This document shows, piece after piece, positions 6,865 to 37,627 of a stretch of DNA of 45,137 nt. A program made the position numbers and the translations under genes. The stretch spans positions 1 through 45,137 of the forward strand of contig JAAHHN010000028.1 in NCBI GenBank assembly GCA_010672165.1. Direction: 5' to 3'. A model generated the notes under the pieces. That model made no database searches. It worked only from the letters and a program-made list of their open reading frames with translations, and was not told where the DNA came from. The DNA comes from Spirulina sp. SIO3F2. GTDB lineage: Bacteria > Cyanobacteriota > Cyanobacteriia > Cyanobacteriales > Spirulinaceae. Position 1 is the first letter of the stretch. The number at the start of each line of letters is the position of its first letter.

Positions 6865-6899
6865 TAATAATCCGGTGAGCATCAACACATGACAAAAAA

Positions 6900-6923
6900 A
6901 GAAGAGGATTATCTTCCTCTTCT
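6900..6923 (-). terminator. Terminator of the sigma/TPR/peptide unit
   Basis: On the minus strand AGAAGAGGA and TCCTCTTCT form a 9-bp stem with a 6-nt loop, followed by seven T (the complement of the A run at 6894-6900). It lies 64 bp past the stop of the peptide gene at 6987 and is the natural end of the minus-strand island unit. Confidence 0.8.
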
Positions 6924-6986
6924 CAAATTTCTCGATTGCCTTAGTCTTTGTCGCTGTGGTTGAGAACGTGTTTCAAGGGGAAGTAA

Positions 6987-7202
6987 TTAGAGTCGGCGAG
7001 TACAGTTACCAAATTTACTTTTCCAGGATTTACCTCCAACTCGCTTACAATTATGAGCATCTCGATTATTGAGAACTCTACCCGAACAATTTCTGGCACT
7101 GTAGCACTTTTGCTTGGCGGATATCTCAACTCCAGAATCTGAAGAAAGATGAGAAAAGCCTAAGTCACGGATTATGGGCAAAGCTTGAATGGGGAAAGGC
7201 AT
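6987..7202 (-). CDS. Cys-rich cationic RiPP precursor-like peptide (P1)
   Basis: The frame opens with TTG at 7217, but ATG at 7202 has GAGGA eight bases upstream and gives 71 residues starting MPFPIQALPIIRD. The leader contains P-I-Q-A-L-P-I-I-R, matching the motif of the other island peptides and of cyanobactin leaders. It ends in GVEIS (24-28), the place of the PatA cleavage sequence. The predicted core (29-71) starts AKQKCYSARNCSGR, has four Cys and many Lys and Arg, and ends GNCTRRL. It lies 73 bp after the P2 gene on the same strand and before a strong terminator. Two disulfides and an antimicrobial or signalling role are possible, but this is inference. A competing frame at 6941-7129 lacks these signals. 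Confidence 0.7.
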   Translation of the reverse strand: MPFPIQALPIIRDLGFSHLSSDSGVEISAKQKCYSARNCSGRVLNNRDAHNCKRVGGKSWKSKFGNCTRRL

Positions 7203-7275
7203 AAGGTTATTCCTCAATAATTGCAGTTATCTATGAACGTGTCATGCTGATGGATTAGGTGAGCACCATAGAACT

Positions 7276-7476
7276 TTAGACACAATTACATGAATACGCT
7301 TGTGTTGCTTGGTTGTAATAACACTGTGGATTATATTTTGGCCCACAATTGTCAGAAGTTACATTTCCCGCTGCATCACAGGTACAGCTAGCTTGAATTC
7401 CTGAAGCTGCCAAACGATTTTTAGAGAGCATTGATGGGATATTACGGCTAACCGGTCGGACTTGTACTGGAGACAT
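7276..7476 (-). CDS. Six-Cys RiPP precursor-like peptide (P2)
   Basis: This 66-residue peptide has an excellent ribosome site (AGGAGGAA, eight bases from the ATG). The leader is MSPVQVRPVSRNIPSMLSKN and ends in GIQAS (26-30). It has the P-V-Q-V-R-P-V-S-R motif with P3 and R11 eight apart. The core (31-66) begins CTCDAAGN, ends SCNCV and has six Cys, with Tyr, Asn and Gln in between. It is not cationic, unlike P1. Processing after Ser30 by the PatA-type protease at 9925 is inferred from the junction sequence. It follows the TPR gene by 144 bp, which could hold its own promoter. Confidence 0.75.
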   Translation of the reverse strand: MSPVQVRPVSRNIPSMLSKNRLAASGIQASCTCDAAGNVTSDNCGPKYNPQCYYNQATQAYSCNCV

Positions 7477-7620
7477 GATTAGATTCCTCCTATGTTTTAT
7501 ACTTCTAAGACGGTATGAGGCTTGATTTCTGAATTTTTTCGAGTTTTTGCTTAGACTTCATCGTTTTGATTTGACATATAAATATCAACTCAAATCTCAA
7601 ATAGAAAAGATACCAAGTAT

Positions 7621-8688
7621 CTAATGATGCTTTTTTATTACTTCCAAAAGCTCTTTTGATCTATCTGCACGATGCCAAATATCTACTAATGTTTTTTTGA
7701 TCTGAGGATCTTGAGGACAGAGCTGATATGCTTTCAAAATCATCTCAGATGCAGATTGATTTTTTTGTTGACTGAATAGGGCTTTGGCATAGCAATACCA
7801 GCCTTGGAAGTTGTCTGGATAGTTTTGGGTGAACGCCTGCCATAATTCCAGGCTTTTAGAGCGCTTACCTTTTAACTGATAATATTTCGACTTTAATTGG
7901 GTGACTTTGACCGAATAAGGTGCTAACTTTGATAGTGTGATTAAAATCTTTTGAGTTTGTTTTCCTTCTATACCTGATATTAAGTTTTGTCGTAACCGTT
8001 GGGCCACAAGTCGTGTCAAAGTAAGATAATCATCAGGTGCTAAAGACTCAATCTTTTGCAATGTGACTTTTGATTCCTCTCCCTGCTTCAAGATAAGCTG
8101 TAAGTCATGAATATGGCAGAGGGCAATCACATCATCAGGCTCCATCATCACTATTTTCTCAAAGGAATTCAACGCAGCCTTATATTTACATTGCTGTAGT
8201 TGAGTGCGACCCAGCGCTAACCAATGGGCTGGATTCTGATGTTCTTCCTGAGTGGCTAAAAAAAAGTAATTCTCTGCTTGTGCAAGCTTCTGAGCACATA
8301 AACTAATCAATCCTCGGATATGCTGTTGAGTTGCACTTTTAGAGCAGATCTCAATTGTTTCTTGGTAGAGCAGCACTGCATCTTGGTGTTGTCCGATAAG
8401 CTGCCAAATCTTACCGAGCTTGATTCTAATATTGATCAGTTGGGGCTGACGCTCAATGACTTGCTGATATGCTGCGATCGCAGCTGTCCAATTGCCTTGC
8501 TCATAGAGAAGCTCTCCCAGCTCCAAGTGTTTTTTCCATCCTGTGGGATGTTTCTGAATATACTTTTGGAGTGTTTTGATTTTTTGTGTGGCTCGAGTAC
8601 TGTTTAGAAAACAAACAAATTCAAGATTGAGTTCTTTTTTTATTGGTTCATCTACCCACACTCGGCAAACATGAGTTTTTCTGGACAT
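7621..8688 (-). CDS. TPR-repeat protein of the RiPP island
   Basis: The 355-residue protein consists mostly of tetratricopeptide-like helix pairs. Clear units include LGELLYEQGNWTAAIAAYQQ (from about residue 57), LGKIWQLIGQHQDAVLLYQE, LALGRTQLQQCKYKAALNSF and CYAKALFSQQKNQSASEM. It has no membrane segment or signal peptide, so it is probably a cytosolic protein-binding scaffold. Its ATG at 8688 lies inside the sigma-factor gene: the two overlap by 37 nt, which suggests translational coupling and a joint function. It might bind the sigma factor, the precursor leaders or the protease; the sequence does not tell which. Confidence 0.8.
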   Translation of the reverse strand: MSRKTHVCRVWVDEPIKKELNLEFVCFLNSTRATQKIKTLQKYIQKHPTGWKKHLELGELLYEQGNWTAAIAAYQQVIERQPQLINIRIKLGKIWQLIGQHQDAVLLYQETIEICSKSATQQHIRGLISLCAQKLAQAENYFFLATQEEHQNPAHWLALGRTQLQQCKYKAALNSFEKIVMMEPDDVIALCHIHDLQLILKQGEESKVTLQKIESLAPDDYLTLTRLVAQRLRQNLISGIEGKQTQKILITLSKLAPYSVKVTQLKSKYYQLKGKRSKSLELWQAFTQNYPDNFQGWYCYAKALFSQQKNQSASEMILKAYQLCPQDPQIKKTLVDIWHRADRSKELLEVIKKHH

Positions 8689-9377
8689 AGTGCTGTGATA
8701 GAATAACTAATTGATTCTATTGGTCTATAAACAGAAGAGTTCTTAACTTCAGCGATCAATTCCACTCTCTCTAGATTGCTTCCATACTGAGAAAACTCAA
8801 TGATATTTATTGCATCTAGGTAGCCGGATAGGCGTCTTTGCAATATTTTTCTTGATTTTTGGATGATCTTATAGAGACTATCTATTTTTATTGAGAGTTT
8901 CTGTGAGATTTCTTGATAAGATAAATCGTGAATAAATCTTAAAATGAATGGAACTCTGAGTGTATCTGGTAGTGAGTTTATCGCTTGTTTGATCAGAATC
9001 CCAAGCTCATTATTTTCCAATTCCCTATCGGGTAAATCCGAAACAGATTCAATACTATTGAGTGAGTTATTGACAAAATCTCCAACCTCGTCCAAGGAAA
9101 GTACTTGACGGTTTTTTTGACGATAAATATCTATACACAAATTATGTGTAAGCCGGATCAGCCAGGCTTTCGGATCTTGAATTTGACTTTCATATTTTGG
9201 GAATTTTTCCCAAGCTTTGAGACGAGCTTGCGCGATCGCATCTTGGGCATCATTAATATTTCCAGACATCCAAGACAGGCAACGTTTATACAGATATTCC
9301 TCATGGAGTAACCATAGTTGCCAAAAGTTTGAGCAATCCACTAAAGGAGATTGCTTTGATAGTCTTTTTTGGTTCAT
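8652..9377 (-). CDS. ECF-type sigma-70 family RNA polymerase sigma factor
   Basis: The ATG at 9377 has a perfect AGGAGGG six bases upstream, so the longer frame from 9416 is rejected; the product is 241 residues. Region 2 is seen around DAQDAIAQARLKAWEKFP and DPKAWLIRLTHNLCIDIYRQ. Region 4 follows with INSLPDTLRVPFILRFIHDL and LSYQEISQKLSIKIDSLYKI, a helix-turn-helix that reads the -35 element. There is no region 1.1 or 3, as in ECF factors. The extra C-terminal tail of about 55 residues is unassigned. No anti-sigma with a membrane helix is adjacent; the overlapping TPR protein is the only candidate partner. It diverges from the protease operon, so it probably controls the island. Confidence 0.85.
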   Translation of the reverse strand: MNQKRLSKQSPLVDCSNFWQLWLLHEEYLYKRCLSWMSGNINDAQDAIAQARLKAWEKFPKYESQIQDPKAWLIRLTHNLCIDIYRQKNRQVLSLDEVGDFVNNSLNSIESVSDLPDRELENNELGILIKQAINSLPDTLRVPFILRFIHDLSYQEISQKLSIKIDSLYKIIQKSRKILQRRLSGYLDAINIIEFSQYGSNLERVELIAEVKNSSVYRPIESISYSITALCPEKLMFAECG

Positions 9378-9924
9378 TATCCCTCCTGGGAAACAATAAA
9401 GGAGATGATAAATCAAGAGAATTCAATGGATTTAATTTTTAAATCAAATGCGATTCAAAACATTCGCATTCTTTTGCTCTTGACTTAGGGGTTTAACTGA
9501 CTAACAGGTTTATCCATCACATTATTGATTGTCAAGATCCATAAAAATATTTCTTAACACAATCAGTTCAAGAGCATTTTTAAATCTATTTTGAGCAGAT
9601 ATAAAACCCCAAAGCTTATTATCTTCTATTGTCAAAAACAAAATCCGGAAAGTTTTGAGGATTTATTTTTATTTTCATCGCTCCAAGTCTGTTTTTCTTA
9701 TTACTGGCGTCAACCAAGACCCTTGCCACACAAAGGATTCATTGCCTTCATACCCAAAGTATCCTGCTCAGCTCCAATCACAATAATCAACCCATAACTC
9801 AAAAAAATCAGAAGTTTTGATGAGCGATCGTCTTAAAGATGTAGGGACACAGGAAACACTTTCTGAGGTTAGCGACTGATACTTTAATCGGTCGCAGATT
9901 AACTCATCAGAAGTGATTGATTGC
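9378..9924. promoter_or_regulatory. Divergent intergenic region between sigma factor and protease
   Basis: About 550 bp without a convincing gene separates the two divergent island units, so promoters for both should lie here. It holds an inverted repeat AATGCGA (9447-9453) / TCGCATT (9464-9470), 70-93 bp before the sigma start, a possible operator. TTGACT at 9480 is followed 16 bases later by TAACAG, a weak promoter-like pair. A 19-codon frame at 9820-9879 precedes the protease and has no visible support. The base composition is AT-rich compared with the protease gene. Confidence 0.4.
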
Positions 9925-12009
9925 ATGGAACTTGATGTAGCCAACCACGCTGTAGACACAAAAACGGCCACGGCTCTCTCGGCTTTGCCAGGATTAGACG
10001 CTTTGTGGCAAACCACCCAAGGCACACCGGATATCTGCATTGCCGTATTGGATGGCCCTGTGGATCTTGAGCATCCCTGTTTTCAGGGCGCTAATTTGAA
10101 ACGGTTGCCCACATTGGTTACAGACACCGCAGGCGACGGAATGATGTCGGGTCATGGTACCCACACCACCAGCATCATTTTTGGCCAATCGGGCAGCCCC
10201 TTACATGGGATTGCCCCCCAATGTCGGGGTCTTATTGTGCCGGTGTTTTCAGATCATCGGGGGTCTCTGTCTCAACTTGACTTGGCACGGGCCATTGAAC
10301 AAGCAGTCGATAAAGGCGCACAGGTCATCAACATCAGTGGCGGTGAATTGAGCCCATCTGGCCAGGCTCGCCCGGAGTTGGAACGAGCAGTACGTCTGTG
10401 CAGAAACAACAATGTGCTGATTGTGGCAGCGGCGGGCAATGATGGCTGCGACTGCCTCCATGTGCCGGCTGCCTTAGATTCCGTCCTGGTGGTGGGTGCA
10501 TTAGATAGCCAAGGTCATCCCCTAGGCTCTAGCAATTGGGGCAAAGTCTACCAAACCCAAGGGCTTCTGGCCCCCGGCCAGCACATTTGGGGGGCACAAG
10601 TCGGTGGGGGGCTGACCACCAAAACGGGGACGAGTTTTGCCACCCCTATTGTGTCAGGGATTGCTGCACTGCTCTTAAGCCTGCAAGCGCAACAGGGTCA
10701 AACGCCTAATCCGCAAGCGGTGCGAGAGGCGCTCCTGGCGAGTGCTAAACCTTGCAACCCGGAAGCCACGCCTGACAGTCAGCGCTGTTTGGCTGGACTT
10801 CTACATATTTCTGGGGCTCACGCCTCATTGCAAAACAACGGAGACACACACAAGATGTCTGAAGAAAATCCAACAGTACAACCGAGCGAAGAACAAAGTA
10901 ATCTTTCACCCGTGATTGCTCCCAACGTCGAATGGAGCCGTCAAAATCAGTTTGCGACGAATAATCCGCCACCGACAGCAACGGGTGTGCAGGCAGCAGA
11001 AGCCCCACCGCCACCAACTAATACAGTTGCAACAGCCCCTGCCGCAGGCACAGTAATGCCATCTCATGCAGGCGCTGTGACTGCCAGTGAGGTCACCGCC
11101 TCAGATTGTGGGTGTGATGGCGTAACCAGCAGTAGTGGCATGGATAAACGGGTGTCAGAGTTCCGCCATGCTTTGGCGTACACAGGGGTCGAATCTCTTG
11201 TCTATGCGATCGGGACTTTAGGGTATGACTTTGGCACAGAAGCGCGACGGGATATGTTTGTGCAGCAGATGCCCCAAGCACAAAATGCTCCTCCTCCCAA
11301 TCCTTATAATGCCCAACAGTTCCTTCCGTATTTAGACAGCAATCCTTCTGCCACAAAATCTTTAATTCTGACTCTAAATATTGAGTTAACTCCTATTTAT
11401 GCAATTCAGCCAGAAGGCCCCTTTGCGAATGATGTTTATAAATATATTTTGGAGTTGCTTAAGGGGCAGATTCAACCCGATACAGACCCAGAGTACATCT
11501 CACGGATTTCTCTACCGGGTCTGCTTACTGGACGCAGTATAACTTTATTTTCTGGTCAAGTTGTTCCAGTAGTGGTTCCTCAAAAAATTGGCATGTATGG
11601 CTGGAATGTCAATCAACTCTCCCAACTAGCAGTCCAAGCAGCAGGCGGTAGTTCTTCTACCGCTCGAAATTCTTTCGAGGATTTTCTCAACCGCGTTTAC
11701 TATGAGTTTCGGAATTTAGGACAGACGTCCCATGATCGGGCGCTGAATTTTGCCGCAACCAATGCCTTCCAAGCCGCTTCTGCTTGGCAAAGTGCCTTAC
11801 AGGCAAACATGCAACTCGCTGATATCACCGTTAAGCGTAGTTCTTTTTGTCGCATTGATTCTGATTGTTGGGATGTACGACTCAGTTTCTTTGATCCAGA
11901 GAACGATCGCAAAGCGAACAAAATTTACTTATATACCATTGATGTCAGTGATGAAATGCCAGTCACCATGGGGCCTGTACGGACTTGGTCTGCCCCTGGT
12001 GCGTATTAA
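9925..12009 (+). CDS. patA: PatA-type cyanobactin maturation protease (subtilase)
   Basis: This subtilisin-family serine protease has the catalytic Asp in ICIAVLDGPVD, His in SGHGTHTTS, oxyanion Asn in AAAGNDG and Ser in TGTSFATP. The protease domain covers about residues 20-300. A Pro/Ala/Thr-rich linker with CGCDG follows. The C-terminal half begins near FRHALAYTGVESLVYAIGTL and contains TLGYDFGTEARRDMFVQ, typical of the PatA/PatG protease family. No oxidase domain is attached and the compact protease domain shows no obvious macrocyclase insertion, so PatA is the better model than PatG. PatA removes the leader of cyanobactin precursors at recognition sequence II (G-L/V-E/D-A-S). Matching sequences occur in the adjacent peptides. 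The start is GTG 9913 or ATG 9925; neither has a strong Shine-Dalgarno. Confidence 0.85.
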   Translation: MELDVANHAVDTKTATALSALPGLDALWQTTQGTPDICIAVLDGPVDLEHPCFQGANLKRLPTLVTDTAGDGMMSGHGTHTTSIIFGQSGSPLHGIAPQCRGLIVPVFSDHRGSLSQLDLARAIEQAVDKGAQVINISGGELSPSGQARPELERAVRLCRNNNVLIVAAAGNDGCDCLHVPAALDSVLVVGALDSQGHPLGSSNWGKVYQTQGLLAPGQHIWGAQVGGGLTTKTGTSFATPIVSGIAALLLSLQAQQGQTPNPQAVREALLASAKPCNPEATPDSQRCLAGLLHISGAHASLQNNGDTHKMSEENPTVQPSEEQSNLSPVIAPNVEWSRQNQFATNNPPPTATGVQAAEAPPPPTNTVATAPAAGTVMPSHAGAVTASEVTASDCGCDGVTSSSGMDKRVSEFRHALAYTGVESLVYAIGTLGYDFGTEARRDMFVQQMPQAQNAPPPNPYNAQQFLPYLDSNPSATKSLILTLNIELTPIYAIQPEGPFANDVYKYILELLKGQIQPDTDPEYISRISLPGLLTGRSITLFSGQVVPVVVPQKIGMYGWNVNQLSQLAVQAAGGSSSTARNSFEDFLNRVYYEFRNLGQTSHDRALNFAATNAFQAASAWQSALQANMQLADITVKRSSFCRIDSDCWDVRLSFFDPENDRKANKIYLYTIDVSDEMPVTMGPVRTWSAPGAY

Positions 12010-12060
12010 GCACAATTTCAAGCTTGATCATCTTTATTCATTTTTTGGAGCATTTTTACA

Positions 12061-12216
12061 ATGAACCTTCCCAAACAATCTCAACCTGTTGTCCGACTCA
12101 ATAGTTCAGTACAATCTCCAATTCAGCAGTCACAAGTCATGCCTTCTAGCATTGATGATTGCTATAAACTACCCGGTGCATCTCGTAACTTGTGTATTGC
12201 TGGTTATGTCCACTAA
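12061..12216 (+). CDS. RiPP precursor-like peptide (P3), 51 residues
   Basis: This gene follows the protease by 51 bp, with GGAG ten bases before the ATG. The peptide starts MNLPKQSQPVVRLNSS and carries P-K-Q-S-Q-P-V-V-R, the island leader motif with P4 and R12 eight apart. A Ser/Gln-rich middle follows. The C-terminal part is DCYKLPGASRNLCIAGYVH, with two Cys that could form one disulfide. Unlike P1, P2, P4 and P5 it has no G[VI][EQ]xS junction; the nearest resemblance is PGAS inside the presumptive core. It may be processed elsewhere or be the least intact family member. Confidence 0.6.
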   Translation: MNLPKQSQPVVRLNSSVQSPIQQSQVMPSSIDDCYKLPGASRNLCIAGYVH

Positions 12217-12331
12217 CCACTTAGAGCCATGCTGATTCCAATTCAGGCTGGACATGTACCACGAACGCTGTGGTGAATGTTTCAGCTAAACCCTAATCCA
12301 AAATGACAATTCGTTCAAAAAAAGGAACATT

Positions 12332-12553
12332 ATGAACAAGCAAAATCTGCCCGTCCAATCTGCTCCTGTTACCCGTTATGTTAGCCCTGGTGCTGTCAAT
12401 GGTGGTGCTGGTGTTGAAGCTTCTAGCTTCTGGGATACGCTCGAACACATCGGCAGCACTGTTGGCCACGTCGCTAAGGTTGCGCTGCCTATTGCTGGTC
12501 AAGTTGCTCAGGTTGCGTTGCCTATTGCTGGTAAAATTGCACGTACTCTATAG
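12332..12553 (+). CDS. RiPP precursor-like peptide (P4) with hydrophobic repeat core
   Basis: The 73-residue peptide starts MNKQNLPVQSAPVTRYVSPG, strikingly like cyanobactin leaders (patellamide precursor: M-N-K-K-N-I-L-P-Q-Q-G-Q-P-V-I-R, from memory). GVEAS at 27-31 equals recognition sequence II. The leader lacks the LAELSEEAL-type segment that recruits the heterocyclase. The core (32-73) begins SFWDTLEHIGSTVG and then has two 11-residue repeats, VALPIAGQVAQ and VALPIAGKIAR. No C-terminal macrocyclisation signal (AYDG type) exists, so a linear helical, bacteriocin-like product is likely. GGAAC precedes the ATG by a few bases. Confidence 0.8.
   Translation: MNKQNLPVQSAPVTRYVSPGAVNGGAGVEASSFWDTLEHIGSTVGHVAKVALPIAGQVAQVALPIAGKIARTL
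12479..12544 (+). repeat. 33-bp tandem repeat inside the P4 core
   Basis: Two units of 33 bp (12479-12511 and 12512-12544) both begin GTTGCG and include TGCCTATTGCTGGT. They encode the 11-residue repeats VALPIAGQVAQ and VALPIAGKIAR, so part of the core grew by tandem duplication. Confidence 0.75.
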
Positions 12554-12859
12554 AGCTATTGAAGAGTTGAATCAAAGATTTTATTTTTTTGTTCGACTCA
12601 CTGAATATAGTCTCTATTTAAAAACAAGGCAACTTCTGTTCAGATCTAAAAAAAATTTCTATTTCATTTGGGAATTTTTTGAGATAAGTTTCTAGATCTT
12701 AACGCAGAAAAAATTCAAATCATGGGTTAGGTGTTTTTACCATATAACCCAACCCATGATTTATCGGGCTTCAAGATTGATGCCAACTTTTTCTGTAGTT
12801 TGATTGTGAATTTGCTTTGGTGACCGATATTTAATGTAAGTCAAATTTCAAGGGATATT
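12554..12859. other. Intergenic stretch with a 12-bp hairpin (12717-12762)
   Basis: This gap between the P4 and P5 genes is very AT-rich and holds no leader-bearing frame. AAATCATGGGTT (12717-12728) and AACCCATGATTT (12751-12762) are perfect inverted repeats with a 22-nt loop that contains a small inner GGT/ACC pair. No T tract follows. It could be an mRNA-stability hairpin or attenuator that sets the ratio of the flanking peptides. Confidence 0.45.
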
Positions 12860-13051
12860 ATGAACAAAAAAAACCTACCCGTCCAGTCTATTCCCGTTAC
12901 TCGCTATGTTAGCCCTAGTGCTGTCACAGGTAGTACTGGTGTTGAGGCCAGTGATTGGACTGACTATCTGAGGGCCTGTTTAAATGGGTGTGTTCAAGAG
13001 GCTGGTCAATTAGCATTGAACCATGCTGGACAGGCTTTTATGGGTACCTGA
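12860..13051 (+). CDS. RiPP precursor-like peptide (P5), paralogue of P4
   Basis: The 63-residue peptide starts MNKKNLPVQSIPVTRYVSPS. It matches P4 over most of the first 31 residues and has the same GVEAS at 27-31. At the DNA level the two leaders are also close, so they are recent duplicates, but the cores differ completely. The core (32-63) is DWTDYLRACLNGCVQEAG followed by QLALNHAGQAFMGT. It has two Cys spaced C-x3-C and an amphipathic look. AGGGA lies eight bases before the ATG. A conserved leader with a hypervariable core is the usual RiPP signature. Confidence 0.8.
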   Translation: MNKKNLPVQSIPVTRYVSPSAVTGSTGVEASDWTDYLRACLNGCVQEAGQLALNHAGQAFMGT

Positions 13052-13070
13052 AGCTGTTTTTTGGTTCGAC

Positions 13071-13100
13071 AAGAGTATTTTGGGGACTAAAAATATTCTT
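13071..13100 (+). terminator. Terminator-like hairpin after P5
   Basis: AAGAGTATTTT (13071-13081) and AAAATATTCTT (13090-13100) pair over 11 bp with one G-T pair and an 8-nt loop, followed by ATTCTTTGTTATTCT. It starts 20 bp after the P5 stop and may give partial termination before the distal peptide genes. Confidence 0.5.
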
Positions 13101-13428
13101 ATTCTTTGTTATTCTATTCCCTTGTAGTAGAGTATGAAGCTCAACCTATAAGTTGGCATAGATCAGACTCTATTGAGGTTAGAATAATCTTCTAATGCTG
13201 AATCCAGATAATAAAGATGAGCGGAGTCAAAATCCAGCCACCTTGACTATTCCCTCTGGGGATACTACACGTAGGCGTAGCCAGCCGTTAAGCTTACGAT
13301 TCTACTCAGTCTTCGCTTTCTGAGCATATACAATTTGGATTCAGTATAAAAGCGATACTTCATCCTTGTGAAGTTTTTGAGACTCAAATCTCTCTATCCT
13401 GCGAGCCTTTATCTATAGTGGAGTTTTC
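13101..13428. other. Intergenic stretch before the precursor pseudogene
   Basis: I see no leader-bearing frame here. A 42-codon frame at 13195-13323 has no resemblance to the island peptides. Around 13265 CGTAGGCGTAGCC resembles short dispersed repeats common in cyanobacteria. The 3' end carries GGAG before the pseudogene start. Confidence 0.4.
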
Positions 13429-13608
13429 ATGGAAAATCAAAGCCAAAAATCTCCCTGTCAAATCTTCACCTGTTATCCATTTAGATAACCCTGGAATTCT
13501 TTTTTTGGGTTCAATCATGCAAGTGCTCAAGTGAGTTTGCTAGAAGGCTTACTCCTATCACTGGCAACCAAAGCAGTCCCTGCTATTGTGAGTGCCGTCA
13601 CCAGTTAA
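13429..13608 (+). pseudogene. Frameshifted RiPP precursor (P6), decayed
   Basis: ATG 13429 has GGAG six bases upstream and reads MENQSQKSPCQIFTCYPFR before a stop. Read one base shifted from 13445, the same DNA gives KNLPVKSSPVIHLDNPG, an obvious match to the KNLPVQSIPVTRYVSPS leader of P5, with the final Arg changed to His. After a second shift the frame continues HASAQVSLLEGLLLSLATK and ends VPAIVSAVTS at 13608, a hydrophobic helix-like core. At least two indels therefore break a former precursor of the P4/P5 type. The ribosome site is still present. Confidence 0.7.
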
Positions 13609-13765
13609 TTTGTTTATTTGGCATTTAGCGAGATTTACTTGTACTAATCGCATTCACTTTAAATGTCATCACTACTGGAGCATTAGGGAATGTTGATCTC
13701 ACATTCGGATTTCCAGTAAACATTCTCTGATTTGCACTTTTCTATTTTCTTTACCCCCTAAATCC

Positions 13766-14065
13766 ATGTTTTCAGTCTATTGTTCTTCCATCCCAAATTC
13801 TGAGCCATCGGAGCCATCGGAGCCACCAACCCGTTTCTTTCCATTACAATCTCATCCTGTTTCTCGCAAATGTGGGTATGAACCTTACCTCAGAAAGACC
13901 ATAATACCCATACCTGATGAGGACGGCATTCCCCTATATTTATCCTATATGCCCAGTGGCGAATATCCGAATCAACCCGCTCACTTTACGGGAGCCTATG
14001 AGCATGGTTGTCAGCTTTTTGCTGGTGCAGCGATGGCACAATGCTTAGCTGCCTATGGCTTGTAA
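13766..14065 (+). CDS. Long RiPP precursor-like peptide (P7), 99 residues
   Basis: This peptide is longer than the others. It has an N-terminal extension with the SEPSEPSEPP repeat before the leader motif P-L-Q-S-H-P-V-S-R (residues 26-34). The rest includes DGIPLYLSYMPSGEYPNQPA and ends GCQLFAGAAMAQCLAAYGL, with two Cys near the end in a hydrophobic stretch. No GxxxS junction follows the motif directly. There is no clear Shine-Dalgarno before ATG 13766, so the true start may be a different codon. It is the last gene before a strong terminator, and its motif and position place it in the island family. Confidence 0.6.
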   Translation: MFSVYCSSIPNSEPSEPSEPPTRFFPLQSHPVSRKCGYEPYLRKTIIPIPDEDGIPLYLSYMPSGEYPNQPAHFTGAYEHGCQLFAGAAMAQCLAAYGL

Positions 14066-14221
14066 TTACAACAAAAAAGCATCGTTCAAAGGTTGTTGAA
14101 TCCTCACCTTATGAAGGATAACCTGTTATGCCTGGAGTTCTAACCGGTTTGTAGAGCAAAATGCTTCTCTGCCCGTCGTTATCCTCGCACCTACCACTCT
14201 GCCTCCTGTTGAGCAATCAGC

Positions 14222-14259
14222 GCCCACCTTGATGATGTATTGAAGGTGGGCATTTTTTT
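14222..14259 (+). terminator. Terminator ending the protease/precursor unit
   Basis: GCCCACCTT (14222-14230) and AAGGTGGGC (14243-14251) form a 9-bp stem followed by ATTTTTTTG. It is a strong intrinsic terminator on the + strand about 155 bp past the P7 stop, and it marks the right edge of the island. Confidence 0.85.
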
Positions 14260-14400
14260 GTGCGAACTGCGCCAGCAACTTGAGCATCATTTCATACGAA
14301 ATCCATCTTGTCTGCACCAAGAATCAAATACCCCGCAAGGTAGGGAAACCCAGCCCCTACAACAGGAAAATTTTTGGGATTTTAACGTTCGGATTTGGTA

Positions 14401-27390: not shown

Positions 27391-27987
27391 ATGTCATATA
27401 GTCAATTTACGCTGGATCAAGTCAAGGCGAAATTTGAGCTAACTATTCAAGAGGATCGACCTTTATTTACTGAGCCGCCTCAAGTTCAGCCCTCTCAACT
27501 CTTGCAACAGTTGCTTCAAGACTATTTGCCCCTTGCACTAGCAATGAATAGTGAAAAAGCGCGATCGGAATTTATTATCGCGCCGATACTTGCGGATGTA
27601 CGCCACCATGTAACTCAACCGATTTCGCTCTTTTCAGGGAAAGAATTCAATGTTGATGCTGAAAAAAATCTCACAGGATTTTGTGATTTTCTTCTGAGTA
27701 AATCCAAAGAACAGCTTTTTATTGAAGCCCCAGTGGCCATTATTGTGGAAGCTAAAAATGAAAATATTATTGGAGGCTTAGGTCAATGCGCCGCAGCGAT
27801 GATTGCAGCTCAGATCTTTAATCAGAATTATGGGCAAGTTGTACCCGAGATTTATGGTGGGGTGACCACAGGCAATGTGTGGCGTTTTCTACGGTTGATT
27901 GACCACACCCTTGAGATTGATAGCGATGAGTATTACATCAAGGAACTCCCAAAAATTCTCGGGATTCTGACCCTGTCTTTCACTTAA
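27391..27987 (+). CDS. PD-(D/E)XK-like protein
   Basis: The 198-residue protein has a helical N-terminus, then LTGFCDFLLS (Asp about residue 97) and APVAIIVEAKNENI (Glu and Lys about residues 119-121), followed by a helix LGQCAAAMIAAQIFNQ and a terminal strand pair. The D...ExK order is the PD-(D/E)XK nuclease pattern, the same logic as in the protein at 796. Function unknown; proteins like this are often seen as isolated cyanobacterial hypotheticals. It ends 12 bp before the convergent mutL stop. The ATG at 27391 is the only reasonable start. Confidence 0.65.
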   Translation: MSYSQFTLDQVKAKFELTIQEDRPLFTEPPQVQPSQLLQQLLQDYLPLALAMNSEKARSEFIIAPILADVRHHVTQPISLFSGKEFNVDAEKNLTGFCDFLLSKSKEQLFIEAPVAIIVEAKNENIIGGLGQCAAAMIAAQIFNQNYGQVVPEIYGGVTTGNVWRFLRLIDHTLEIDSDEYYIKELPKILGILTLSFT

Positions 27988-27999
27988 AAAGCATTCTGG

Positions 28000-29670
28000 T
28001 CAAATTCCATGACTCTTACCAATGACCCAATGGCGGCGAAAGAACTTCGAGAGTGAGGATTCATCCAGCGCCAGATAGATTGGTCGGCCATGGGGACAGG
28101 TACGCGGGTTGCGTGTCGCCTGCCACTGCTCGATGAGTGTCTGCATTTCAGAGAGCGTCAGCGTTTTGCCATTGCGGATCGCACTGCGGCAAGCCGTGGC
28201 AACCTGAGCCGTTTGCAAATCACCACCTTGACTGAGTTCCAAGATAGCGTCAGCCTGATCCTCTCGCTCGGCGAGTAACCCCGGTAAGCTCCGCACCGCC
28301 CACATCTGTTCCCCAAACGGGTCAATATCCAGACCAATCCGTTGGAGCTGCTCCACCTGCCGATCGCGCAGCCCACTTACAATCACAGGCTGCTCTAAGG
28401 CGATTGGCTCCCAAGCCGCTTGCAACTGCTCAAACAGCACCCGCTCATGGGCAATATGCTGCTCAATCAGCCACAGCCCATTGGGGTGCTCAGTGACAAT
28501 ATACATCTGGTTCACTTGAGCAACCGCTTTGAGGGGCATCAAGCCAATCTCGCTTTTGGGCGCATCTGTCGGCGCAACTGTGCGATCGAGGCGGTAGGTT
28601 CCGCCTGGTTCAGCAGCCTTGAGCAACTGGGTTAGGCGTTGGTTCTGGGCGGCAGTGGGTTCGCTGGGGTTGAGGTTTAGGACTTGGGCGATCGCCTCAC
28701 TCACGGCCTGCCGCCAAAAGTCCAGGTTGTGCAAATAAATTTCCGTCTTGGCAGGATGGCGGTTCCAGTCGATCTGCTCCGGGGGTAGGTGCAAATGCAA
28801 GAACGCGACGGGATGACGATGGCGGGGCAGGGTGCGAGCCATCCCAGCCAGGATGGTTTGTTCGAGTTGGGGTGATCGCACATATCTGCCGTTAACGGCC
28901 ACTTTGAGCCAGTCGGGTTTATGACGATGGTAGCGATCGGGCAGCCCAAGCACCAGTTGAATTTGTGAATCGGGGTATTCACTCACCTCATGCTCAACAT
29001 AGCCCAAATCGCTGGGCTGCACCCGCCGCAAAAACTGAGGCAAAATGTCTTGGGCGGTTTGACCTGCCAGGATTTGCAGCCAAGACTTATGCTCGATTTC
29101 CACTGACCAATTCACCTGAGGATGGCAGAGGGCGAGGTGTTGGATAATGTCTTGGATTTCTTGGAGCTGTTGTTTGGCTGCGGGGAGACCCTGACGACGT
29201 ACAGGAACGTTACCAAATAATTCTGAGACGGTGATAATGGTGCCAGGGGCGATCGCCACAGTTTCTTGGTGCTGGACATGGCCAAGGCGATCGTAGGTCA
29301 TCTGCCAACCGGCTTGGGGGGACTCGGCGGGACGGCTGCGAATCGCCAGTTCGGCCAGTTGCGCGATGCTATGGAGCGCCTCCCCTCGGAAGCCTAAGCT
29401 GGTGATCCGCCACAAGTCTTCTGAGGTGTGGATTTTGCTGGTGCTGTGGGGCAGGGCGCAATGTTGCAAGTCTGCCAGGGTCATGCCGTGGCCGTCATCG
29501 GCGATCTGCACCTGCCATCGCTCTAGGGAGATTTGTAGGCTCAAGCGACTGGCCTGGGCGTCGATCGCGTTTTCGGCTAGCTCTCGCACCACGGCGGCAA
29601 AAGAGTCGATTACTTCGCCCGCAGCAATGATGTTGATGACCTCTTGGGGCAGCGGTTGGATTTTCGGCAT
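28000..29670 (-). CDS. mutL: DNA mismatch repair protein MutL
   Basis: The 556-residue protein has GHKL ATPase motifs near the start: VRELAENAIDA, IADDGHGMTLADL and TSLGFRGEALHSIAQLAEL. The C-terminal domain contains IEQHIAHERVLFEQL and CPHGRPIYLAL. In endonuclease-type MutL the metal site is D-Q-H-A-x2-E-x4-E; here the first residue is Glu and the Ala is Ile. The C-P-H-G-R-P zinc site is intact. The protein is about 60 residues shorter than the E. coli form. It links mismatch detection by MutS to strand incision. Stop codons of the flanking + strand gene lie 12 bp away. Confidence 0.95.
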   Translation of the reverse strand: MPKIQPLPQEVINIIAAGEVIDSFAAVVRELAENAIDAQASRLSLQISLERWQVQIADDGHGMTLADLQHCALPHSTSKIHTSEDLWRITSLGFRGEALHSIAQLAELAIRSRPAESPQAGWQMTYDRLGHVQHQETVAIAPGTIITVSELFGNVPVRRQGLPAAKQQLQEIQDIIQHLALCHPQVNWSVEIEHKSWLQILAGQTAQDILPQFLRRVQPSDLGYVEHEVSEYPDSQIQLVLGLPDRYHRHKPDWLKVAVNGRYVRSPQLEQTILAGMARTLPRHRHPVAFLHLHLPPEQIDWNRHPAKTEIYLHNLDFWRQAVSEAIAQVLNLNPSEPTAAQNQRLTQLLKAAEPGGTYRLDRTVAPTDAPKSEIGLMPLKAVAQVNQMYIVTEHPNGLWLIEQHIAHERVLFEQLQAAWEPIALEQPVIVSGLRDRQVEQLQRIGLDIDPFGEQMWAVRSLPGLLAEREDQADAILELSQGGDLQTAQVATACRSAIRNGKTLTLSEMQTLIEQWQATRNPRTCPHGRPIYLALDESSLSKFFRRHWVIGKSHGI

Positions 29671-37287: not shown

Positions 37288-37627
37288 GGTGGTTTGAGTG
37301 AGTGATAATCGGTTCATTTTAGCGTGAAAGCCTAGGGACAGCAGAAGGGTGAGTGTAGAAGACTCTGCCAACATGTCGTAACCCAACCGCTGACCCATGC
37401 AAATCAAACATCATCTCATCTTCGCTTGACTGTATTTTTTCAAGTCAAGCATACTCGAAAATATTGTAAATAATTAATTTGCTCAAGGAACCTTTTTTCA
37501 TTCACCAAAAACAAAAGAATCCTTGAATTTCTTGCCAATAAAATAAATCTCTATTGCTTTCCGAGTTTTTTACTTTCTTTGCCGACGCTGGAGACCGAAC
37601 ATTTAAATCATTAGCGGACAAATCCGA
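37288..37627. promoter_or_regulatory. Region upstream of the IscA-like gene with an inverted repeat
   Basis: GCTTGACT (37424-37431) and AGTCAAGC (37443-37450) form an 8-bp inverted repeat 137 bp before the IscA start, with a T-rich loop. It might be an operator, or on the + strand a weak terminator. No other gene or RNA is seen between 37288 and 37627. Confidence 0.35.

Follow-up and report, generated by a model that had tools for sequence, protein, structure and literature searches.

In papers on cyanobactins PatA is treated as the partner of a second protease, PatG, and according to a 2015 review (PMC4663559) every active cyanobactin cluster has both the A and the G protease together with E, B and C. 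The present study concerns a PatA-type protease and the small peptide genes around it, in the interval 6899-14259 of contig JAAHHN010000028.1 of Spirulina sp. SIO3F2, whose 45,137 nt are here called the window. Of the A and G pair this interval has A only, the G protease of the genome lying on another contig (C224). An earlier note, made from the letters of the sequence, had described a PatA-only island with seven precursor genes and its own sigma factor; the island is real, conserved in relatives, and largely as that note had it, with corrections. It is probably a dedicated peptide-maturation island built around a divergent PatA that would release linear peptides.

Compared with the cyanobactin clusters (patellamide pat; anacyclamide/piricyclamide), the island shares the PatA-type N-terminal protease and its C-terminal domains, the P-(V/I)-x-R leader element, the GVEAS junction and a PatB homologue. 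It differs in having no local PatG or PatD, no LAELSEE-type motif and no follower, and in carrying several unlike long cores and a PatA that falls in a separate clade. The linear cyanobactins (aeruginosamides, viridisamide A) resemble it in that a linear product is expected and many of the window's relatives carry a methyltransferase, but the window cores are long, no prenyltransferase-size open reading frame (ORF) is present in the interval, and the enzyme of the relatives belongs to the LCM family (PF04072). Two-peptide and leaderless bacteriocins and phenol-soluble modulins have amphipathic, near-neutral helical cores, like the cores that often occur two per locus in relatives of the window; in contrast, the window peptides have a leader with a PatA-type junction, and no immunity or transporter gene was recognised in the interval. 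The earlier note knew of no described example of this gene set, and none was found in the open-licence PMC papers searched.

The island consists of two divergent units between terminators. The minus-strand unit comprises an extracytoplasmic function (ECF) sigma factor, an overlapping tetratricopeptide repeat (TPR) protein, and then two leader-bearing, Cys-containing peptides, while the plus-strand unit comprises the PatA-type protease followed by four intact leader-bearing peptides and one that is frame-broken. Both this gene content and the closure of each unit by a well-folding terminator agree with the earlier note. The features are as follows.

6899..6924, minus strand: intrinsic terminator of the minus-strand unit, 10-pair stem and T run; fold of 6890-6932, -14.6 kcal/mol, z -2.7
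6987..7202, minus strand: leader-bearing peptide with a cationic four-Cys core and a junction-like GVEIS; start at ATG 7202, preceded by GAGGAA
7276..7476, minus strand: leader-bearing peptide with a junction-like GIQAS and six Cys in its core; by inspection similar to type II peptides (see below)
7621..8688, minus strand: TPR protein (domain search), overlapping the end of the sigma gene
8652..9377, minus strand: ECF-type sigma factor (TIGR02937); the ORF opens at TTG 9416
9913..12009 (start GTG 9913 or ATG 9925), plus strand: PatA-type subtilase with PatG_D and PatG_C domains (TIGR03895, Pfam, PDB 4h6w, tree)
12061..12216, plus strand: leader-bearing peptide with a conserved C-Y-x-L-x-G-x-x-R-x-x-C loop (CYKL class; alignment A2)
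12332..12553, plus strand: leader-bearing peptide, GVEAS then a 42-residue amphipathic core (alignment A4; hydrophobic moment p 0.023)
12860..13051, plus strand: leader-bearing peptide, GVEAS then a 32-residue core with two Cys (alignment A4; hydrophobic moment p 0.149, not significant)
13429..13608, plus strand: leader-bearing peptide gene with a broken frame, the core being out of frame with the leader (three-frame translation)
13766..14065, plus strand: leader-bearing PatB-like peptide with a C-terminal Cys pair (alignment A3; own-genome search)
14222..14259, plus strand: intrinsic terminator of the plus-strand unit; fold of 14215-14262, -18.5 kcal/mol, z -4.4

The sigma factor, the TPR protein and PatA are the only ORFs of at least 120 aa touching the interval, so that no PatD, PatG or full-size transporter is found among its ORFs, as the earlier note had noticed; the sole YcaO match of the genome is on C224.

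All six intact peptides match the leader P-x-Q-x-x-P-(V/I)-x(1,2)-R. In a search of residues 1-60 of all ORFs 28-149 aa long, this pattern was present in 6 of 83 small ORFs inside 6900-14259 and in none of 390 outside. Over 40 Markov-simulated windows the mean was 0.075 matches, with never more than 1. Because of this distribution, the shared leader is not due to chance. Four of the intact peptides continue into a PatA-like junction (GVEAS twice, GIQAS, GVEIS). One paper (PMC10885120) gives G(L/V)E(A/P)S as the sequence behind which enzymes of the PatA kind cleave, and the peptides at 12332 and 12860 fit that site exactly. In the helical class, to which these two belong, an alignment of 12 rows hand-chosen by the analyst (A4) has P, Q, P, V and R of the leader and VEAS invariant in 12/12, with variable cores, and in the CYKL-loop class (A2) 18 positions are invariant across five rows.

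The protease itself scores 774.2 bits against TIGR03895 (curated cut-off 421.05), and its PatG_D and PatG_C domains exceed their Pfam cut-offs. The best match to a solved structure is 4h6w ('N-terminal cyanobactin protease', E 9.5e-113), with 4h6v and 3zxx ('subtilisin-like protein') also among the best, the last of which we take to be PatA; residues 420-692 match 4uvq ('thiazoline oxidase/subtilisin-like protease'), presumably a PatG domain. D43, H77 and S237 (numbered from ATG 9925), which we take to be the subtilisin triad, are invariant in PatA alignment A1. The catalytic Asp and His, between which the macrocyclisation insert of PatG presumably sits, are 34 residues apart here, 36 in the PatA of the genome's own C224 and 72 in its PatG. 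The insert is named in part of the 2015 review (PMC4663559); the window PatA, with its 34-residue span, does not have it, and the PatG of the same genome has an insert of macrocyclisation type. Since the span is as short as that of the C224 PatA, unlike that of PatG, the window PatA would be expected to hydrolyse rather than to macrocyclise.

Relatives were collected by a scan with alignment A1, from which the best 80 of 227 loci were taken and sorted by tblastn and peptide content into 11 window-like (type I), 11 type II, 49 'classic' (PatD or a second PatA/G protease in the locus) and 9 undecided loci, only one of the last having at least 8 kb on both sides. After four loci were added (L144, type I; L143, L049 and L051, type II) and L130, with its PatA in two frames, was left out, gene content was counted over 83 PatA loci: 12 type I, 13 type II, 49 classic and 9 undecided. 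Peptides of the helical, CYKL-loop and PatB-like classes turn up repeatedly at type I loci, whereas type II peptides have LPIQAQP-like leaders and mostly Cys-rich cores. Both PatD (above 300 bits) and a second PatA/G protease occur in 0/12 type I loci, and among the 13 type II loci each occurs once, PatD in the flank of L143 and the second protease at L125; types I and II were labelled by the analyst from peptide content and the absence of PatD and PatG, and these counts are neither blind nor independent of definition, just as those of the classic loci are true by definition. More than a dozen further genomes, almost all of them cyanobacterial, have related protease-only loci; similar islands are found, among others, in Oscillatoria PCC 10802, Okeania, Roseofilum and G196. 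Oscillatoria sp. PCC 10802 is noted in one paper (PMC3877893) for a 'loner' A gene; of its two PatAs here, L056 is type I and L113 classic, and the 'loner' could be either. One type I locus is on a contig named Terriglobia from a metagenome-assembled genome (MAG); this 5.1 kb contig (L103) carries PatA and GVEAS-bearing peptides, and a binning error is possible.

Searches were also made from the peptide side. The CYKL profile matched 5 and the helical-class profile 6 of 386 cyanobacterial genomes, the own genome included in both, and a PatA-family protease adjoins the match in 6/6 genomes (in G272 only its end, on a short contig). The rows of the helical profile come partly from the own genome, G045 and G196 and none from G083, G272 and G346, where the weak matches are type II-like peptides.

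In the PatA tree (94 rows, 19 of them PatG domains used as outgroup; L103, L130 and nine near-duplicates left out, undecided loci merged with classic), which the earlier note had proposed to build, 24 protease-only PatAs, the window's included, form a clade of their own (SH-aLRT 100), and 50 classic or undecided PatAs together with L120 form the other (SH-aLRT 91). The window PatA itself is placed with less certainty than types I and II, because a tree without the outgroup (and likewise without L130) places it with L103 on the classic side.

Of 18 type I cores, 17 had a helical hydrophobic moment above that of composition shuffles (p<0.05, uncorrected); the lone exception was the window core at 12860. 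The cores were selected and typed by the analyst, some type I peptides from L060, L083, L089, L103 and L116 being left out, and the Adonisia core starts after GVEA rather than GVEAS. Net charges of these cores range from -2 to +1. The prediction is one of helices active at surfaces or membranes, unlike the classical cationic antimicrobials.

Taken together, these data point to a PatA that likely releases linear peptides, amphipathic or Cys-containing. The enzyme would recognise the leader and cut after G(V/I)(E/Q)(A/I)S, and the released peptides would be neither heterocyclised nor macrocyclised, because the window peptides have neither the LAELSEE-type motif nor the follower of the genome's own PatE. 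Cys-containing products probably form disulfides. After release, the products may most plausibly be membrane-active or signalling peptides, and expression may be under the divergent sigma-TPR pair; both role and regulation are guesses. The proposal of the earlier note that one protease matures a diverse peptide set is thus consistent with a single PatA, unlike leader-bearing peptides, no local modification enzymes and similar islands elsewhere, the maturation step being predicted from sequence.

Several points weigh against this reading, besides the dependence of the locus counts on their definition. The trees were made by a quick method, without bootstrap; L120 groups with the classic clade; and the window PatA is on a long branch, the outgroup-free tree joining it to the long-branched L103 on the classic side near the midpoint. 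Two type II loci, L125 and L143, are flanked by cyanobactin-like enzymes, L049 has a 142-bit PatD-like piece, and L124 and L126 show no peptide by the analyst's pattern. Within the window, the intact peptides at 12061 and 13766 have no recognisable G-x-x-x-S junction, GIQAS and GVEIS deviate from the consensus given in the published passage (PMC10885120), and there is no transporter in the island to account for export.

The window peptides might instead be ordinary cyanobactin precursors placed away from their cluster and modified in trans. The genome does encode a complete-looking cyanobactin cluster on C224, with a YcaO/PatD region, PatG and two PatE precursors (the YcaO match lying between PatG and these), then PatB, then a second PatA, and the P-(V/I)-x-R element is common to the window peptides and the C224 precursors. 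However, one C224 precursor has LAELSEE and the other LAELAEE with SYDG, and the window peptides have no such leader motif and, by inspection, no C-terminal follower; TIGR03678 and TIGR04446 matches in the window are weak and below cut-off. Moreover, the window has long cores, with 32 and 42 residues following GVEAS, C224 has a PatA and precursors of its own, and neither PatD nor a second protease is present at the window-type loci, a result covering those loci and not trans-acting genes elsewhere in the same genomes, which were not searched for. The full patD/patG set that the earlier note had named as a competing explanation therefore exists, but with its own PatA and PatE; the two systems look separate, action in trans being conceivable, and modification of the window peptides by the C224 PatD and PatG is judged rather unlikely. 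The C224 PatE pair (minus strand, near 37532 and 37723) has unusually Cys-dense cores, CCCTLCCCA and CCCTCPCCCC.

A second possibility is that the N-terminal segment common to the peptides serves as a tag for sorting or docking and not as a leader to be removed, the peptides acting uncut or being cut elsewhere. PatB-like peptides without a clear junction, and two proteins on C224 that bear a PatB segment at the C-terminus, are in keeping with this, but VEAS is invariant in all 12 aligned helical-class peptides while their cores vary, as for a protease site, and the tag is considered improbable. Decay of a cyanobactin cluster after loss of PatD, PatG and PatE would explain the frame-broken peptide gene and the truncated PatA next to a sigma homologue in G010; it is very hard to reconcile with the recurrence of similar islands and with their PatAs forming a separate clade, and we give it little credence.

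PatB bears on the count of precursors as well. Alignment A3 matches the 13766-type peptides with cyanobactin PatB along the leader and in an N-x-P-x-x-(F/Y) region, and a PatB profile retrieves both the 13766 peptide (3.6e-26) and the C224 PatB in the own genome, both being rows of that profile. Six intact and one broken leader-bearing genes stand, as claimed, but one of the seven 'precursors' is a PatB homologue, and its gene, contrary to an earlier reading, has no obvious ribosome-binding site. Parts of the 2015 review (PMC4663559) describe PatB as present in nearly all cyanobactin clusters, and B and C as non-essential, with no function identified. Beside the C224 cluster, two LamG/pentraxin-domain proteins that are not rows of the profile have a PatB-like segment as their C-terminal end (E about 2e-29):

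C224:26005-27543 and 27799-29340 (L010 6-1544 and 1800-3341): LamG/pentraxin proteins with PatB-like C-terminus (PatB profile)

The relatives carry further enzymes, and 'PatA-only' fits the window but not its type: an LCM-type methyltransferase (above 150 bits) occurs in 9/12 type I loci and 0/71 others (family PF04072, from two proteins scanned; a weak 67-bit match at L091), and a patatin in 6/12 (PF01734, from one protein scanned). Patatin matches of 29-31% identity were seen in two type II loci and in no other locus of that search. The methyltransferase may methyl-esterify a peptide carboxylate in many relatives. It was not found in the window genome by a query that works, since it matches 8/386 genomes, and was rejected as part of that genome's own system. 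LCM homologues at 41-52% identity were likewise rejected as island markers, 5/5 regions having no PatA, yet L089 (52%) has one.

A wider proposal, put forward tentatively and on balance doubtful, is that of an undescribed class of ribosomally synthesised and post-translationally modified peptides, with a sister clade of PatA, LCM methyltransferase and often patatin in relatives, linear and perhaps C-terminally methylated amphipathic pairs plus a Cys-loop peptide under sigma-TPR, and a PatB of common origin with one peptide. If a separate PatA clade without nearby PatG or PatD is borne out, the family would also mature linear peptides, some helical and some Cys-rich, and the PatB of cyanobactin clusters would gain a testable origin. 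Searches keyed on YcaO or PatE would probably miss such peptides.

The sigma factor scores 81.6 bits against TIGR02937 (curated cut-off 42.9), and its start is better placed at ATG 9377, with AGGAGG upstream, than at TTG 9416 as read earlier. Homologues are present at 6/12 type I loci, all among the nine with at least 5 kb upstream, and TPR at 5/12; each was found at 0/49 classic (39 with at least 5 kb upstream), 0/13 type II and 0/9 undecided loci. Genome-wide, however, a sigma homologue (E<=1e-25) occurs in 27/386 cyanobacterial genomes, own included, and 15 such regions inspected away from known PatA loci have a TPR gene in nine, PatA in none, and one, seemingly spurious, match to the peptide pattern. 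'Its own sigma factor' was therefore too strong and the gene was rejected as an island-specific part, although among the 83 PatA loci it is confined to window-type ones. At L202 (9645-12520) a sigma homologue is followed by a patatin close to that of type I (482 bits), with no PatA in the region.

A terminator pattern scan of the whole window gave 7 sites versus 6.7 in shuffles, no excess; it picked up 6899-6924 and missed the 14222 site owing to its loop limit. A scan for sigma-70 promoters did no better than chance (14 sites against 15.1 expected). The G+C content is 36-41% across the sigma/TPR and peptide parts versus 52-55% from 14000 rightward.

Type II loci have a companion of their own, an AAA_35-group protein in 8/14, in six of them on the opposite strand to PatA and just upstream; five proteins were scanned, all AAA_35 and one with a helix-turn-helix. 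Clusters of PatA, PatD and a second protease were also seen on non-cyanobacterial contigs named Roseobacter (MAG), Sphingomonas and Bradyrhizobium (L122, L123, L129). The type II peptides of L131 (12042-12920), L134 (12041-12489) and L049 (6224-6436) have, by eye, knottin-like Cys spacing, and L131 carries three near-identical peptide genes in tandem and a fourth running into N.

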